Of a stretch of 64,000 nt of DNA, positions 56,417-63,837 are shown piece after piece. The notes under the pieces are model-generated. The model saw nothing but the letters and a program-made list of their open reading frames with translations, was not told where the DNA came from and did not search any database. Position 1 is the first letter of the stretch. Every line of letters begins with the position of its first letter. Both the position numbers and the translations under genes were made by a program. The stretch covers positions 742,937-806,936 of the forward strand of contig NZ_OBEH01000002.1 of assembly GCF_900215465.1 (NCBI RefSeq), written 5' to 3'. Origin of the DNA: Flagellimonas pacifica (GTDB lineage: Bacteria; Bacteroidota; Bacteroidia; Flavobacteriales; Flavobacteriaceae).

Positions 56417-57340
56417 ATGCAATTCAATGACAACACTCCGTTAGAAATCGTTCTAAAGGCCATTTTTGATCCCTATAAAGAAAGTGTCACAGATGTGGAA
56501 ACCATCAGTACTGCAATGATCCGTAAAGGCTTGATCAATAGGGAAGAGGATATTATCAATGACCATATTGCTTTCCGAACCTTAGGTGTTCCTAACCTTG
56601 GCATTAAATCCTTGGAAAAAATATTTCTTGCATATGGTTACCAAAGAAAAGATGCTTTTTATTTCGAAGAAAAGAAATTGGATGCTTATTGGTATGCACC
56701 ACCAAGTCCAAAATATCCAAGAATTTTCATAAGCGAACTAAGGGTAGATGACTTGTCTCAAAATGCACAATCCATCATTAGAAAACATACCCAAGATATA
56801 GTAAAAGACCCTGTCGATGCTCTTGATTTTGAAAAACCCAAAGAAGTTGGAGAGTTCTTTTACCAACCACTATGGGAAGCTCCAACGGTAGATGATTTCT
56901 TAGAATTGGGCAAGGAAAGCGAATACACCGCCTGGGTAATTTACAATAGATATTATCTAAATCATTATACCATAAGTGTGCATGCCTTGCCAGAGCCATA
57001 CAATAAGCTTGAAAAGTTCAACGCCTTTTTGGAGGAAACCGGTATTGTGCTAAATACCGCAGGAGGGAAAACAAAAACCAGTAAAGATGGTCTTTTAAAA
57101 CAAAGTAGTTCTGTTGCCAAAATGGTAAACGCTACATTTGCCAATGGTGAACAAATGAAAATTGCTGGTAGTTATGTGGAATTTGCGGAGCGATTACCCT
57201 TACCTGAGTTCCAAGCAATGGACAAAAGTCTTTTAAAGCGTGAACATTTGCGAGAAGGTTTTGAATCTGCCAATGCCGATAAGATTTTTGAAAGCACCTA
57301 TGATGAACAGGTAAAAAAGACGGCTACGTACCACTCTTAA
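56417..57340 (+). CDS. DUF1338 protein (2-oxoadipate dioxygenase/decarboxylase-like)
   Basis: 307 residues, cytoplasmic. Family motifs NDHIAFRTLG (48-57, His50), LNHYTISVHALP (181-192, His183 and His189) and GSYVEFAERLP (251-261, with Glu255 or Glu258) supply the His/His/Glu iron site expected from HglS, the Fe(II) enzyme that converts 2-oxoadipate to 2-hydroxyglutarate in lysine breakdown. It is shorter than HglS. The role in this organism is an inference. Regulated by the divergent LysR gene. Its 3' end overlaps the convergent XRE gene by 17 bp. Confidence 0.85.
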   Translation: MQFNDNTPLEIVLKAIFDPYKESVTDVETISTAMIRKGLINREEDIINDHIAFRTLGVPNLGIKSLEKIFLAYGYQRKDAFYFEEKKLDAYWYAPPSPKYPRIFISELRVDDLSQNAQSIIRKHTQDIVKDPVDALDFEKPKEVGEFFYQPLWEAPTVDDFLELGKESEYTAWVIYNRYYLNHYTISVHALPEPYNKLEKFNAFLEETGIVLNTAGGKTKTSKDGLLKQSSSVAKMVNATFANGEQMKIAGSYVEFAERLPLPEFQAMDKSLLKREHLREGFESANADKIFESTYDEQVKKTATYHS

Positions 57341-58091
57341 CCTGCCCTACCTGCTTTTTCAATTCCTCCATAGATTGTTGGAGCTGTCTCAGCAATCCAG
57401 TTTCCGTAGTGGCATCGACATTGAAAGTTAGTTTACTGCTTACCTCCCATATTTCCTGTATCTGAAAAGGTTTAATGTCATATGGAGGATAGGTCTCGTT
57501 CAAGGAAACCAAGGTAATGTTATTGGAATTTGGTTTTCTTTCAATCTTTTTCACCATTACAGAATCTTGAAGTACCACTACATACATTTTATTTGGACTT
57601 ACATGGTCAATATGTTCTATCGCCCTAGACAACACCCATTCTCCAGGTCTTAAATTGGGTAACATACTGTCCCCTTCCACCTGAAATCCACGATAGGTCG
57701 CATTTCTAAACTCTGGAATGGGCATATCAAAAGCAGGTAATTGTTGATACCAGCTTGTATCTTGAATATTCTGTGGATAACCGGCCGCCGCCTTGGCATT
57801 GACCAATACCATATTATCTTGCTCGGCGCTATCAACGGTTACAACTTTGGGAATCACGCTGGTTTTCGATGTATCCAAGTGCTTTTGATCACTTTCACCA
57901 AATAACCATAATGGATTGATCTTAAACTGTCGCAACAATTCAGCCACAACCTTACCCGATAATTTCGTTCGTCCCCGTTCAATATCCGCTGTGGTATTCT
58001 TAACGCCCAGCAGTTGCGCAAAATCAGTTTGAGTATGGCCCAACTCTCTTCGTATCTCAATAAATCGTTTTAAGGTCAGTTCGTTCTCCAT
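57324..58091 (-). CDS. LexA-like XRE-family repressor with S24 peptidase domain
   Basis: 255 residues from ATG 58091; a longer frame to 58208 reads through the promoter and operators and is rejected. XRE helix-turn-helix (about 7-56, HTQTDFAQLLGVKNTTADIE). The S24 domain has a possible self-cleavage Ala103-Gly104 bond, Ser142 in GDSMLP and Lys181 or Lys182 in VMVKKI, the LexA-type Ser-Lys dyad. It probably represses itself and the divergent radical-SAM operon through four repeats at 58110-58188, and cleaves itself on DNA damage; this is inference from the family. The -7 box sits four bases before the ATG. Confidence 0.88.
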   Translation of the reverse strand: MENELTLKRFIEIRRELGHTQTDFAQLLGVKNTTADIERGRTKLSGKVVAELLRQFKINPLWLFGESDQKHLDTSKTSVIPKVVTVDSAEQDNMVLVNAKAAAGYPQNIQDTSWYQQLPAFDMPIPEFRNATYRGFQVEGDSMLPNLRPGEWVLSRAIEHIDHVSPNKMYVVVLQDSVMVKKIERKPNSNNITLVSLNETYPPYDIKPFQIQEIWEVSSKLTFNVDATTETGLLRQLQQSMEELKKQVGQVKSGT

Positions 58092-58095
58092 ACTA

Positions 58096-58103
58096 CAAAA
58101 ATA
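58096..58103 (-). promoter_or_regulatory. -7 promoter box abutting the XRE-S24 start
   Basis: TATTTTTG on the minus strand, a perfect match, only 4 nt before the ATG at 58091. A leaderless transcript is predicted. Confidence 0.65.
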
Positions 58104-58109
58104 GACTTT

Positions 58110-58188
58110 TTGGATTATTTCCAAAATTTTCACTGGATTATTTCCATTATTTGGAATATTTCCATAATTTTGATTGGAATATTTCCAA
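58110..58188. promoter_or_regulatory. Four-copy operator array for the XRE-S24 repressor
   Basis: Four 15-bp imperfect palindromes match TTGGAwTATTTCCAA: 58110-58124, 58133-58147, 58151-58165 and 58174-58188. Starts are 23, 18 and 23 bp apart. Copy 1 lies 6 bp upstream of the minus -7 box; copies 3 and 4 flank the plus -7 box. The layout suggests cooperative repression of both divergent units. Confidence 0.8.
58165..58172 (+). promoter_or_regulatory. -7 promoter box for the radical-SAM gene
   Basis: TAATTTTG is a perfect TAnnTTTG box between operator copies 3 and 4, 19 nt before the ATG at 58192. Confidence 0.65.
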
Positions 58189-58191
58189 GTT

Positions 58192-59454
58192 ATGGATTTT
58201 AAACGCATTCAAGAAAAACTGAACATTCTAGCAGACGCTGCAAAATATGATGTGTCCTGTGCCAGCAGTGGCAGTGATCGTGCCAATAAGGACAATGGGT
58301 TGGGAAATGCGTCCAAGATGGGCCTTTGCCATAGTTATACGGAGGATGGTAGATGTATATCACTCTTAAAGATTCTGTTGACCAACCATTGCATCTTTGA
58401 TTGTGCCTATTGCGTGACCCGTAAAAGCAATGATGTACAAAGAGCCGCTTTTAAAATTCAGGAAGTTGTAGATCTCACCATCAATTTTTACCGTAGAAAT
58501 TATATTGAAGGGCTCTTTTTAAGTTCAGGAATTTTTAAGAACCCAGATTACACCATGGAGCGTTTGGTTGCCGTTGCCAAAAAACTTCGAAAAGAGGAAA
58601 ATTTCAATGGCTATATCCATTTGAAGTCCATTCCCGGGGTGAGTGATGAATTGATGTATGAAGCTGGATTGTACGCGGATAGACTTTCTGTTAACATAGA
58701 GGTGCCCACCATTTCCGGTTTAAAGCTTTTGGCTCCTGATAAAAAACATGAAGACTTTACCAAGCCCATGTTAAAAGTTAAAAATGAATTGAACCGCTAT
58801 AAAAATGAGCGAAAAGTCATTAAAAGCACTCCTAAATATGCTCCAGCAGGACAAAGCACCCAGATGATTGTTGGCGCTTCTGGTGAAACTGATAAAGACA
58901 TTATGTATTCCGCAACCTACTATTATAAAATGTATCAAATGAAAAGGGTCTACTACTCTGGCTATGTTCCCGTTTCCAATGATAGTCGTTTGCCGTCCAT
59001 TGGATCTCAAGTTCCCATGTTGCGGGAGAATAGATTGTACCAAACAGATTGGCTTCTCAGATTTTACGGTTTTGCAGTCAATGAAATCCTGAATAAAGAA
59101 CACCCAAATTTGGATGTTGATATAGACCCTAAACTGTCTTGGGCGCTAAGGAACCTACATCATTTTCCGGTGGACATCAACAAAGCGGATAAGCCATTAT
59201 TGGCCAGGGTGCCAGGAATTGGTATGTTATCGGTTGATAAAATTATAAAGGCCAGGCAGTTTCGAAAATTAGGATGGGAACATCTTAAAAAGATAGGTGT
59301 GGCACTCAACCGGGCCAAATATTTTATTGTTTGTGATTCCAGAAACTGGGAACGTCGGGATTTGGATGCTGATAGAATCAAAGGACTGATTCTACAGAAC
59401 TCACAAGGTAAATTTAGAAAGCAATACAGTCAACAATTGCAATTATTCAATTGA
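58192..59454 (+). CDS. Putative DNA modification/repair radical SAM protein (TIGR03916-like)
   Basis: 420 residues from ATG 58192. Radical SAM cluster motif C-x3-C-x2-C at Cys67, Cys71 and Cys74 (NHCIFDCAYC). An N-terminal SCASSGSDR segment and a C-terminal helix-hairpin-helix (about 325-375, LLARVPGIGMLSVDKIIKAR) support DNA binding. The family usually travels with the TIGR03915 partner and, in some genomes, a uracil-DNA glycosylase. The exact reaction is unknown. Operator copy 4 ends 3 bp before the ATG, so expression is tied to the LexA-like repressor. The partner gene follows after 43 bp. Confidence 0.9.
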   Translation: MDFKRIQEKLNILADAAKYDVSCASSGSDRANKDNGLGNASKMGLCHSYTEDGRCISLLKILLTNHCIFDCAYCVTRKSNDVQRAAFKIQEVVDLTINFYRRNYIEGLFLSSGIFKNPDYTMERLVAVAKKLRKEENFNGYIHLKSIPGVSDELMYEAGLYADRLSVNIEVPTISGLKLLAPDKKHEDFTKPMLKVKNELNRYKNERKVIKSTPKYAPAGQSTQMIVGASGETDKDIMYSATYYYKMYQMKRVYYSGYVPVSNDSRLPSIGSQVPMLRENRLYQTDWLLRFYGFAVNEILNKEHPNLDVDIDPKLSWALRNLHHFPVDINKADKPLLARVPGIGMLSVDKIIKARQFRKLGWEHLKKIGVALNRAKYFIVCDSRNWERRDLDADRIKGLILQNSQGKFRKQYSQQLQLFN

Positions 59455-59497
59455 TATAATGGAATTAAAAATAAGAAACATCAAAAACGAATAGATT

Positions 59498-60274
59498 ATG
59501 AACCCATCTAAAACCCTCATCTACGACGGAAGCTTCAATGGCTTCCTTACTGCAATCTTCGTATCCTTCGAAGAAAAAATAAATGTGGCCGACATTCAGC
59601 GGAACTCACAAGGCCAAAACGGACTGTTTTCAGAAACGGAGACTATTTTCACCAATGTTGAAAAGGCCAAACGGGTATGGAATGGTATTCGAAACAAAAG
59701 CCATAATGCCATTACCAATGTCTATTTCGCTTTTTTGAGCGAAGCCGAAGGTGTTGAGCTTACCCTTTATACTTATATCCAAAAACTGATGGCTTCCAAA
59801 AATGGCAAGCAGTTGGATTATTCGGATGGTATTGTGTTACGTATTTCCCAATTGGCCCGTTCTGTTGGTCGAGAAAAACATAGAATGGAAGCCTTTGTTC
59901 GGTTCCAGCTCACGAAAGATGATATTTATTTTGCCAATATTGAACCTGATTTTGATGTGCTTCCATTGATTTCAAAACATTTCAGAAATCGATATGCAGA
60001 CCAACAATGGTTGATTTACGATGTGAAACGTAAGTATGGTATTTTCTACAACTTGGAACATGTGGAACTGGTATCCCTAAATTTAAAGCAGGTACATTTC
60101 AACAAAATTCATAAAAGTGATGCTTTCTTAAGTGAGGAATATGACTACCAAACCCTTTGGAACGATTATTTTAAAAGTACCCACATTAAATCAAGAATCA
60201 ACAGGAAATTGCATACCCAACATGTACCCAAACGGTATTGGAAGTATCTTTCAGAAAAGAAAGAAATTGCATAG
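59498..60274 (+). CDS. TIGR03915-family putative DNA metabolism protein
   Basis: 258 residues. The family start YDGSFNGFLTAIF (9-21) is clear, as are the RISQLARSVGREKHRMEAFV core and the DYQTLWNDYFKSTHI tail with Arg/Lys-rich end (RINRKLHTQHVPKRYWKYL). This family is the standard partner of the radical-SAM protein just upstream. It is thought to act in DNA repair; no activity is established. It belongs to the same damage-responsive transcript. Confidence 0.88.
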   Translation: MNPSKTLIYDGSFNGFLTAIFVSFEEKINVADIQRNSQGQNGLFSETETIFTNVEKAKRVWNGIRNKSHNAITNVYFAFLSEAEGVELTLYTYIQKLMASKNGKQLDYSDGIVLRISQLARSVGREKHRMEAFVRFQLTKDDIYFANIEPDFDVLPLISKHFRNRYADQQWLIYDVKRKYGIFYNLEHVELVSLNLKQVHFNKIHKSDAFLSEEYDYQTLWNDYFKSTHIKSRINRKLHTQHVPKRYWKYLSEKKEIA

Positions 60275-60304: not shown

Positions 60305-60829
60305 TTACTTGCTCCGTTCTCCTACAAAATGATCACTCTTGCTTTTAAAGAGCACATTGAATGTGGTCAAACTACCATAGATTCGAGTAATATACTGTTG
60401 CAAATCAATTTTTTCTTGATCGTCAAGGTTTTTACTGCTATTTATTTTTTGTTCCATTACTCTGATACGATCCCGAACCATTACAATTTTATGGAAAAAA
60501 GTATCAATGGGCATTTCCTTATTGGCCAGATCATCTCCTGGTTCCAGAATTAATTTACCGCCTCGCCACTTATCTCCAATAGCAACTTTTTCATGGGTAT
60601 CACTCCACTTTTCCAAAATGCTTACCAATGAACGTTCTACATCAAAAAAACTTACGGTGTCCACTTCATCCTCCACTCTATCAATAACTTCAAACTCAGA
60701 ATCCAAATCAATGGTTTCAAGACCATTTTCTAAAAAAGTCACCCAATAATGTTTGGAAGTTACGTTGGTAACCACTCCTTTCCCGTATTCCAAGTGATTA
60801 ATTCTAGAGCCAATGCCCAATAATTTCAT
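60305..60829 (-). CDS. Conserved hypothetical protein with SH3-like N terminus
   Basis: 174 residues. The N-terminal strand pattern GSRINHLEYGKGVVTNV resembles the SH3-like module found at the ends of UvrD/Rep-type helicases, followed by helical parts with a VRDRIRVMEQKINSSKNL coiled coil. I do not recognise a named family. A degenerate -7 box (TACGCTTG on the minus strand, 60854-60861) lies upstream. It is divergent from uvrA. Confidence 0.65.
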   Translation of the reverse strand: MKLLGIGSRINHLEYGKGVVTNVTSKHYWVTFLENGLETIDLDSEFEVIDRVEDEVDTVSFFDVERSLVSILEKWSDTHEKVAIGDKWRGGKLILEPGDDLANKEMPIDTFFHKIVMVRDRIRVMEQKINSSKNLDDQEKIDLQQYITRIYGSLTTFNVLFKSKSDHFVGERSK

Positions 60830-60956
60830 AGTAAAAAAGCTTATAGGTCACCTCAAGCGTAGCCAAGAAGCAACACGTTTATCATGAACCCAAAAATACA
60901 TCATCAATTAACAAAAACGAAAACAAACCCTACTTCCTTTTTAAGCTTCAAATGTG

Positions 60957-60964
60957 TACTTTAG
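60957..60964 (+). promoter_or_regulatory. Possible -7 box for uvrA
   Basis: TACTTTAG differs from TAnnTTTG by one base and lies 11 nt before the ATG at 60976. It overlaps an upstream in-frame ATG at 60952, favouring the later start. Confidence 0.4.
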
Positions 60965-60975
60965 CATCTTGTGCT

Positions 60976-63837
60976 ATGATTAACTACGAAGAAAATATTG
61001 AGGTCAAGGGAGCAAGGGTCCACAACCTTAAAAACATAGATGTTACCATTCCGAGGGAAAAACTGGTCGTCATAACCGGGCTCTCCGGGAGCGGAAAATC
61101 ATCTTTGGCCTTTGATACCATTTATGCTGAAGGACAACGCCGCTACATTGAAACCTTTTCCGCCTACGCAAGGCAATTTTTGGGCGGTTTGGAACGCCCT
61201 GATGTTGATAAAATAGACGGCCTTTCACCTGTAATTGCCATAGAACAAAAAACCACCTCAAAATCCCCTCGTTCTACTGTCGGCACCATTACCGAGGTTT
61301 ATGATTTTTTACGTTTGCTTTTTGCTCGCGCCGGAGATGCTTATAGTTATAATACTGGAGAAAAAATGGTCAGTTATAGCGATGAGCAAATCAAAAATCT
61401 AATCATCGACATTTACCGGGAGAAGAAAATAAACATCTTGGCCCCTGTGGTCAAATCCAGAAAAGGACATTATCGGGAACTTTTTGAACAGATTGCAAAG
61501 CAAGGTTTTGTAAAAGTGCGTGTTGATGGTGAAATTTTAGATATCACCAAAGGCATGAAGGTGGATCGTTACAAAACCCACGATATTGAAATTGTCATTG
61601 ACCGTTTGAAAGTATTGGAAAGCGAAGATTTCCATAAACGGTTGAATGAAACCATCAATACGGCCATGTACAGTGGTAATAATGTTCTCATGGTCTTGGA
61701 AGAAGGTGAAGAAACCCCTCGCTACTTTAGTAGAGATTTGATGTGTCCCTCATCTGGCATTTCCTATCCTACTCCCGAACCGAATACTTTTTCATTCAAT
61801 TCCCCAAAGGGCATGTGTCCAAAGTGCAATGGTCTGGGCCATGTATTTGAGGTCAATGAACAAAAGATATTTCCTAATAAAAGTTTATCCATCAAAGCTG
61901 GTGGAATTGCCCCATTAGGAGAGTATAAAAAATCCTGGGCCTTTAAACAGCTAGAAACTATTGCCCAACGGTATAAGTTTGAACTGACGGATCCCATAAA
62001 AAAAATACCTTCGGATGCCATGGAAGTTATTTTGAACGGTGGCAAAGATAGTTTTGAAGTCGATTCCAAAACCTTGGGAGTAAAACGGCAATATAAAATT
62101 GATTACGAGGGGATTTCCAACTTCATTAAAACCCAGTTTGATGAAGCCAATTCCACCTCCATAAAACGATGGGCAAAAGAGTATATGGACAAGGTCTCTT
62201 GCCCCAATTGTGAAGGGGCAAGACTCGGAAAGGAATCCCTCTATTTTAAAATTGGTGAGAAAAACATAGCAGAATTGGCCCAATTGGATATTGCTGAGCT
62301 GGCCACATTCTTTTATGAACTTCAGGATAATCTTGAGGGCAATCAAAAGAAAATTGCAGAAGAAATTGTCAAGGAAATTAAGACACGAATTCAATTTTTA
62401 TTGGATGTGGGACTGGATTATCTATCCCTGAACCGAAGCTCAAAATCATTGTCCGGAGGGGAAGCGCAACGTATTAGACTGGCTACACAAATTGGGTCTC
62501 AGCTGGTTGGGGTGCTTTATATTTTGGATGAGCCCAGCATTGGATTACACCAACGTGACAATGAACGTCTGATTAATTCCTTGGTATCACTTCGTGATAT
62601 TGGAAACTCTGTAATTGTAGTCGAACATGATAGGGACATGATTGAGCATGCGGATTATGTAATTGATATTGGCCCCAAAGCAGGAAGGCATGGTGGGGAA
62701 ATAATTTCCGAAGGAAAACCTGAAGATTTAAAGCAATATCATACCCTTACTGCTGAATACATAACTGGTGAAAGGGAAATCCCCGTTCCGCAAAACCGAA
62801 GAAAAGGAACTGGAAAGAAAATAGTGCTTTCTGGATGTACAGGAAATAATTTAAAGAACGTTACGTCAGAATTTCCATTAGGAAAACTTATTGGGGTTAC
62901 AGGAGTATCTGGCAGTGGAAAATCTACCCTGATTAATGAAACCCTCTACCCTATCATGAATGCCCACTACTTTAATGGGGTCAAAAAACCTATGCCCTAT
63001 AAAAAGATAACAGGACTACAACATATTGACAAAGTGATTGATATCAATCAATCACCCATAGGTCGAACTCCACGCTCCAACCCTGCAACCTATACCGGTA
63101 CTTTTAGCGAAATCAGGGCGTTATTTGCTAAAACCACCGAAGCGACCATTAGAGGTTATAAACCAGGAAGGTTCAGTTTTAATGTGGCTGGGGGAAGGTG
63201 TGAAACATGTCAAGGAGGAGGCCTTAAAGTCATTGAAATGAACTTTTTGCCAGATGTATATGTAGAATGTGAAACCTGTAACGGAAAACGTTTTAATAGG
63301 GAGACCTTGGAAATACGATACAAAGGAAAATCCATTGCCGATGTTTTGGAAATGACCATTAATGAAGCCGTGGATTTCTTTGAGAACATTCCCAAAATCC
63401 ATAGAAAACTTAAAACCATCAAAGATGTTGGCTTGGGCTATATTTCCCTTGGGCAACAGTCCACTACCTTATCTGGAGGGGAAGCACAGCGTGTAAAATT
63501 GGCTACGGAACTTTCCAAAAGGGATACCGGGAATACATTTTACATTCTAGATGAACCCACAACGGGACTACATTTTGAAGACATTAGGGTGCTTATGGAA
63601 GTTTTAAACCAATTGGTAGACAAAGGAAATACTATTTTGGTCATAGAACATAATATGGACGTTATTAAAATGATGGACCATATCATTGATATTGGGTACG
63701 AGGGTGGCCGTGGTGGTGGAATGATCGTTGCCAAGGGAACCCCAGAAGAAGTAGCAAAAGACAATAAAAGTTATACAGCCAAGTTTTTGAAGAAGGAGTT
63801 GGACATTTCCAAGCGCAAGATTGCGCCTGCGATTTAA
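60976..63837 (+). CDS. uvrA: Excinuclease ABC subunit A
   Basis: 953 residues from ATG 60976 (961 from 60952). Damage-recognition ATPase of nucleotide excision repair. Two ABC modules are complete: Walker [10 protein letters not shown] (about 35-43) and GVSGSGKST (about 647-655), and two SGGEAQR signatures with the downstream DEPSIGLH and DEPTTGLH regions. The zinc-binding CPKCNGLGH and CETCQGGG segments are present. No second uvr gene is nearby, as is usual. Reading frame intact. Confidence 0.98.

Follow-up and report, generated by a model that had tools for sequence, protein, structure and literature searches.

The 64,000-nucleotide stretch of DNA from the marine bacterium Flagellimonas pacifica considered here (contig NZ_OBEH01000002.1, positions 742,937 to 806,936 of the forward strand; hereafter the window) carries a divergon, in which a predicted LexA-like repressor gene faces a two-gene operon for a radical-SAM protein and a DUF4130 protein across a region with four putative operators, O1 to O4. 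The features, in window coordinates, are as follows.

57324..58091, minus strand: predicted non-canonical LexA-type repressor, 255 amino acids, with HTH_3 and Peptidase_S24 domains, Ser142/Lys181 and Ala103-Gly104.
58096..58103, minus strand: promoter -7 box for the repressor gene, TATTTTTG as read on that strand, judged against the Bacteroidetes consensus.
58110..58124, no strand: operator O1, TTGGAwTATTTCCAA exact, TGGA-N5-TCCA at 58111.
58133..58147, no strand: operator O2, the 15-mer with two mismatches, TGGA-N5-TCCA at 58134.
58151..58165, no strand: operator O3, abutting the radical-SAM -7 box, one mismatch, TGGA-N5-TCCA at 58152.
58165..58172, plus strand: -7 box of the radical-SAM promoter, TAATTTTG, read against the Bacteroidetes consensus.
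58174..58188, no strand: operator O4, between the radical-SAM -7 box and the ATG, the 15-mer exact, TGGA-N5-TCCA at 58175.
58192..59454, plus strand: radical-SAM protein of family TIGR03916 with a C-terminal helix-hairpin-helix, from family and Pfam matches.
59498..60274, plus strand: TIGR03915/DUF4130 protein with a C-terminal PKRYWKYL motif, from family and Pfam matches.

This layout suggests that a LexA-like, potentially self-cleaving repressor is placed to regulate both itself and the radical-SAM/DUF4130 operon via the four operators, a reading to which we assign a probability of about 0.9. The figure covers the regulatory part only; the joining of the radical-SAM and DUF4130 proteins into one unit is graded separately below. 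All four operators fit TGGA-N5-TCCA at spacings of 23, 18 and 23 bp between the divergent start codons, in line with the initial annotation of this DNA, which had reported four copies of TTGGAwTATTTCCAA; only two of the four, however, are letter-perfect copies of that 15-mer. Its placement of the operators between divergent -7 boxes is right for O1 to O3, whereas O4 lies just downstream of the radical-SAM box and ends 3 bases ahead of the ATG at 58192. Both boxes were judged against the Bacteroidetes -7 consensus as generally known, TAnnTTTG.

The repressor had been listed as an open reading frame (ORF) of 294 amino acids that reads through the array; its start is likely the ATG at 58091, giving 255 amino acids. 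It matches PF01381 (HTH_3, CI-type; 32.5 bits, cut-off 23) and PF00717 (Peptidase_S24; 50.7 bits, cut-off 23.3); no other PF00717 match was found in the genome. The initial annotation had named a Ser142/Lys181 dyad and an Ala-Gly cleavage site; Ser142, Lys181 and Ala103-Gly104 are indeed at those residues and are invariant in all 110 aligned rows (the window, 29 family loci and 80 named relatives, with a few duplicates), bond and dyad being assigned by motif rather than by alignment to a solved structure. The canonical LexA domain PF01726 is not among the repressor's Pfam matches up to E 0.001, its place being taken by HTH_3, and, at E values up to 0.01, the repressor profile hits three PDB chains, matched in the helix-turn-helix (HTH) part only and including no LexA, CI or UmuD chain. 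Judged by the repressor, the closest named relatives of the genome are Allomuricauda/Flagellimonas.

The name non-canonical LexA denotes CI-like S24 repressors of Bacteroidetes, whose motif GGA-N5-TCC is found mainly in Flavobacteriaceae (Sanchez-Osuna et al. 2021, PMC8565304). In that account, with Salegentibacter agarivorans (repressor WP_075324850.1), binding was demonstrated by gel shift and induction by mitomycin C by reverse transcription quantitative PCR, and two or more sites are mentioned at several promoters of the class. Every trait of the class that was tested was found in the present case, namely the two domains, the Ala-Gly bond with the dyad, GGA-N5-TCC in the repressor's own promoter, and the motif at genes for error-prone polymerases and at further SOS genes, recA excepted.

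The last of these traits emerged from scans of the genome. With up to three mismatches the 15-mer matches the window 23 times against 15.4 expected, a count that alone cannot separate the array from chance; the genome-wide counts do so. The 4.44-Mb genome contains two exact matches, both in the divergon array, and a strict tandem pattern (gap 2-32) occurs at the divergon only, in three forward places, with none for the reversed-pattern control. The initial annotation had proposed searching for the 15-mer elsewhere; beyond the array, a slightly looser pattern picks up pairs at two further promoters. The looser pair scan gave 9 forward matches, where the control had 1 and 0, and identifies three promoters: those of the divergon, of dinB-dnaE2 (C13:5007-5037) and of a PA0069-type radical-SAM gene (C5:932541-932571; the last two are loci L190 and L191). 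The latter two pairs have a 19-bp spacing, as against 23 and 18 bp in the divergon. Nine of the 18 rows of the pair scan fall at these promoters, and the other nine inside coding frames. The two sites of the PA0069-type gene overlap the opening codons of its longest frame, but are taken as upstream because the match to the family starts no earlier than residue 21. A second dinB (L123) has no site. Single sites outside the array with at most one mismatch number seven; the five examined are all in coding frames, and since C8:373932 and C13:260340 were left out of that reading, targets with a single site are possible.

These pairs also bear on the proposal of the initial annotation that the switch may be a local damage response, flavobacteria often lacking a canonical SOS regulon. 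A dedicated switch, by which the repressor would control only itself and the radical-SAM/DUF4130 pair, apart from any SOS regulon, would fit a four-site array that is unique in the genome and alone matches the strict tandem pattern, as well as a recA gene without a site. It is opposed by the 19-bp pairs at dinB-dnaE2 and at the PA0069-type gene, by relatives that carry pairs at the same gene set, and by the published standing of the class as an SOS regulator, for which PMC8565304 already gives the motif, gel shifts and the induction by mitomycin C. We regard it as very unlikely and have rejected it on the basis of the own-genome pair scan and PMC8565304.

By analogy with the published class, dimers of the LexA-like repressor would occupy O1 to O4 and hold both genes down. 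Judging from their positions, O1, adjoining the repressor -7 box, would block the repressor promoter, while O2 and O3, immediately upstream of the radical-SAM -7 box, and O4, which covers the short radical-SAM leader, would block the promoter and the leader of the operon. Upon DNA damage, RecA filaments would trigger self-cleavage by Ser142/Lys181 at Ala103-Gly104, and the resulting derepression would jointly switch on the divergon, dinB-dnaE2 and the PA0069-type radical-SAM gene.

In nearly all of the 79 relatives aligned, the array and the two -7 boxes hold fixed positions, a feature newly found here. Conservation was followed in 80 named relatives, which are close kin (83-94% identity) and carry two to four GGA-N5-TCC sites between the repressor gene and the partner gene divergent from it. 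The spacing is 23-18-23 in 34 of them, 23-18 in 29, 22-18 in 10, 22-18-23 in three, 65-23-18 in one and of other patterns in three, so that a 23(22)-18 spacing, with or without a further 23, occurs in 77 of the 80. When the 110 bases upstream were shuffled base by base 8000 times, three sites never appeared. The footprint alignment comprises the 79 loci with an array found within 450 bases (L082 was left out): the repressor -7 box CAAAnnTA starts 16 bases before the GGA of O1 in 75 loci, 17 bases before it in three and is absent in one, and the partner-gene -7 box lies 12 bases past the GGA of O3 in 76. Within the 66 loci that have a 23-bp first spacing, the half sites of O1 to O3 are almost invariant, O4 is often degraded and the least conserved, and the bases just outside the promoters vary freely. 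The divergon offers a clear-cut and conserved instance of the switch, with an array of three to four operators locked to two -7 boxes. Beyond the named relatives, a strict site is present within 130 bases upstream of the repressor in 23 of 29 further family loci, which are partly more distant, and at locus L031 dinB, instead of the radical-SAM gene, stands divergent from the repressor.

Several Flagellimonas/Muricauda loci (L045, L050, L060 and L078) have up to ~140 extra bases ahead of the repressor start codon, on the repressor side of the array and its -7 box; these bases, which the window does not have, make a long leader with GTCGAG/CTCGAC-like repeats.

The association of repressor and operators was further examined in a family set of 149 genomes, the own genome included. 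With a limit of E 1e-20, 69 genomes have a repressor homologue, which is a close one (226 bits or more) in 54. Strict tandem pairs occur in 38 genomes; after setting aside five whose sole pair lies inside a coding frame, which were not counted as operator genomes, they are found in 33 of the 54 close-repressor genomes and in none of the other 95. We examined 46 pair loci (29 fetched automatically and 17 picked by hand; about 15 further places, nearly all beside the repressor, were left out), of which 39 are at SOS-type genes and seven inside unrelated coding frames. Eighteen precede dinB and/or dnaE2, three of them also beside the repressor, 11 a PA0069-like gene, one a DnaQ/GIY-YIG exonuclease gene and one an SRAP gene behind a short ORF, and eight are at the repressor/radical-SAM/DUF4130 block. 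The spacing is mostly 19 bp away from the repressor, and mostly 22-23 and 18 bp in the radical-SAM or DUF4130 divergon.

Several observations count against the proposed regulatory switch. The named relatives are not independent because they are close kin; the strict site is absent from the 130 bases upstream of the repressor in six of the 29 further loci (L017, L027, L030, L034, L036 and L038); and 21 of the 54 close-repressor genomes have no tandem pair outside coding frames. The upstream region of recA contains no operator site, in agreement with PMC8565304, where recA of S. agarivorans is reported as not induced. Judged by the traits above, the placement in the class is probable.

On the low-coordinate side of the divergon, an HGLS (2-oxoadipate dioxygenase/decarboxylase) family gene (56417-57340, plus strand) is convergent to the repressor gene, with the frames overlapping at 57324-57340. 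Two genes past the DUF4130 gene lies uvrA (60952-63837, plus strand), preceded by the gene of a 174-amino-acid protein (60305-60829, minus strand) that has no Pfam match up to E 0.5 and no NCBIfam match up to 0.01. Both neighbours recur in relatives, e.g. L040, L045 and L049, with extra genes inserted.

The CI-type HTH_3 and S24 architecture could also belong to a prophage repressor, domesticated or cryptic, in which case the operators would be phage leftovers, and PMC8565304 argues for a phage origin of the entire non-canonical LexA class. However, the frames examined beside the repressor are chromosomal-type genes, uvrA included, and conservation of the repressor and of the array extends across genera, the partner being a radical-SAM, DUF4130 or dinB gene; owing to this conserved genomic context we consider the prophage explanation extremely unlikely.

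The operon placed under the LexA-like repressor had been correctly assigned as the TIGR03916 and TIGR03915 pair, both proteins scoring above curated cut-offs: the radical-SAM protein has 667.5 bits for TIGR03916 (rSAM_link_UDG; cut-off 343.5), and the DUF4130 protein 268.6 bits for TIGR03915 (cut-off 112.25) and 176.5 bits for PF13566 (cut-off 27). The two genes are adjacent in four phyla among the loci examined. In the family set TIGR03916 is found in 33 and PF13566 in 47 of the 149 genomes, and the radical-SAM gene never occurs without DUF4130 (33 of 33). DUF4130 without the radical-SAM gene is found in 14 genomes, as an open frame in 13, each with the match within ~650 bases of the repressor, and as a relic in one (G132).

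Across phyla the C-terminal stretch of DUF4130 is conserved, with the core P-K-R-Y-W, and is varied in L205-L208. P-x-R-Y-W is kept in all 32 radical-SAM-positive relatives and in the window (33 of 33); 30 of the 32 have PKRYW followed by K or R, G023 has PKRYWQ and G143 has PRRYWK. None of the 13 intact genes from genomes lacking the radical-SAM gene has a PKRYW-type tail, and an N-terminal YDGSFNGFL-type motif is present in 11 of these 13 and in 29 of the 32. Because of the 33/33 against 0/13 distribution, the tail is marked as the radical-SAM-coupled part of DUF4130. This association, and the retention of DUF4130 beside the repressor where the radical-SAM gene is absent, are likewise newly found. 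The relic in G132 (L285 3116-3310), whose genome has no TIGR03916 match, is a start-less 70-codon fragment with PKRYWKYL and was left out of the 13 intact genes.

Of the 80 named relatives, 65 have radical-SAM as the partner gene, 14 have DUF4130 alone and one has neither. PKRYWK occurs in 63 of the 65; of the remaining two, one has PKRYWR and in the other the frame ends before the tail. On the repressor tree the radical-SAM state changes 10 times, at least four of them on well-supported branches, and in four independent pairs the tail goes with the radical-SAM gene in 2.8 on average and never against it; L113, whose DUF4130 frame stops short of the tail, and L099, which lacks DUF4130, were left out of this test. 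Two results tell against the coupling: the tail motif is kept in two of the 14 named loci without the radical-SAM gene (L045 and L057), and with only four well-supported independent pairs the sign test gives p 0.25, significance being out of reach.

On balance we favour, with moderate confidence, the view that the radical-SAM and DUF4130 proteins form one repair or modification unit, in which the C-terminal tail would work with the radical-SAM protein. More speculatively, the latter may be only half of a two-protein machine, with DUF4130 as a DHH-fold (RecJ/Cdc45-like) non-nuclease DNA-binding scaffold whose tail, LW..YFK..I..R.N.KL...H.PKRYWKYL, would present the lesion to the radical-SAM protein or dock it; lineages without the radical-SAM gene would then keep the core under LexA control for a second damage-response job independent of it. 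Cdc45 is a catalytically altered member of the DHH superfamily. The DUF4130 profile has no match in the PDB up to E 1, and there is no DHH family among the 18 Pfam matches listed up to E 10. By hhalign, the RecJ (25 rows) and NrnA-like (5 rows) profiles reach ~0.1% probability, below unrelated controls at 0.6 and 0.35%. The catalytic DHH motif is absent from all 36 DUF4130 sequences, and DUF4130, if related to DHH proteins, would be catalytically altered. In the PDB, the radical-SAM profile hits nothing but two RuvA chains at E values up to 0.1 (0.0014 for the better one), and the structure model of the protein, built from 17 closely related rows, is unusable (predicted local distance difference test score 38.5).

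DUF4130 in genomes without the radical-SAM gene might instead be merely decaying, so that loss of the tail would be uninformative on the radical-SAM interface. These proteins have diverged (PF13566 42-143 bits, against 159-188 with the radical-SAM gene), one of the 14 copies is the 70-codon relic in G132, and the ratio of nonsynonymous to synonymous substitution rates (dN/dS) is higher than in most radical-SAM-bearing pairs, which have 0.01-0.09 where a value was obtained. On the other hand, 13 of the 14 are still open frames beside the repressor, 11 of the 13 keep the N-terminal motif, and whole-gene dN/dS is 0.06-0.10 in six of 12 comparisons, rough values with dS near saturation; one further comparison gives 0.07 over the first 185 codons, and in five dS is saturated and yields no value. 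The genes appear to be under purifying selection, and we judge mere decay rather unlikely. Coupling through the tail would point to the residues that link the radical-SAM and DUF4130 proteins, and the tail-less DUF4130 at an SOS promoter of genomes without the radical-SAM gene offers a natural test of DUF4130 acting alone.

Among known systems, a SplB-like radical-SAM repair function with DUF4130 has been proposed in PMC3765255; the relation of the tail to the partner and the DUF4130 genes without the radical-SAM gene do not figure in the accessible part of that account. Our searches found no established reaction for the pair, and nothing on the tail or on DUF4130 without the radical-SAM gene in the open-licence literature, supplements not covered. 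In Alpha- and Betaproteobacteria (L205, L207 and L208) a TIGR03916-type radical-SAM gene is followed by DUF4130, as in the window, but there the DUF4130 frame is 472-503 amino acids with a long C-terminal extension that the window protein does not have; it is annotated as a UdgX family uracil-DNA binding protein in L205 and L207 and carries no annotation in L208. UdgX together with radical SAM gave no match in the open-licence literature.

Judged from its sequence, the window switch is a DNA-damage (SOS) switch of the already described Bacteroidetes kind in a new genome. With the non-canonical LexA of PMC8565304 it shares the HTH_3 and S24 domains, the Ala-Gly bond, the Ser/Lys dyad, GGA-N5-TCC, predicted self-regulation, and a predicted regulon of dinB/dnaE, SplB-type radical SAM and the COG1573-COG4277 operon, to which the published predicted regulon adds SRAP and a GIY-YIG exonuclease. 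It differs, as far as the accessible text of that account goes, in i) a fixed array of three to four operators common to the divergent radical-SAM/DUF4130 operon, and ii) a DUF4130 protein without a detected uracil-DNA glycosylase domain. HdiR of Lactococcus/Streptococcus, described in the same account, is likewise a CI-type HTH and S24 repressor of a small SOS regulon.

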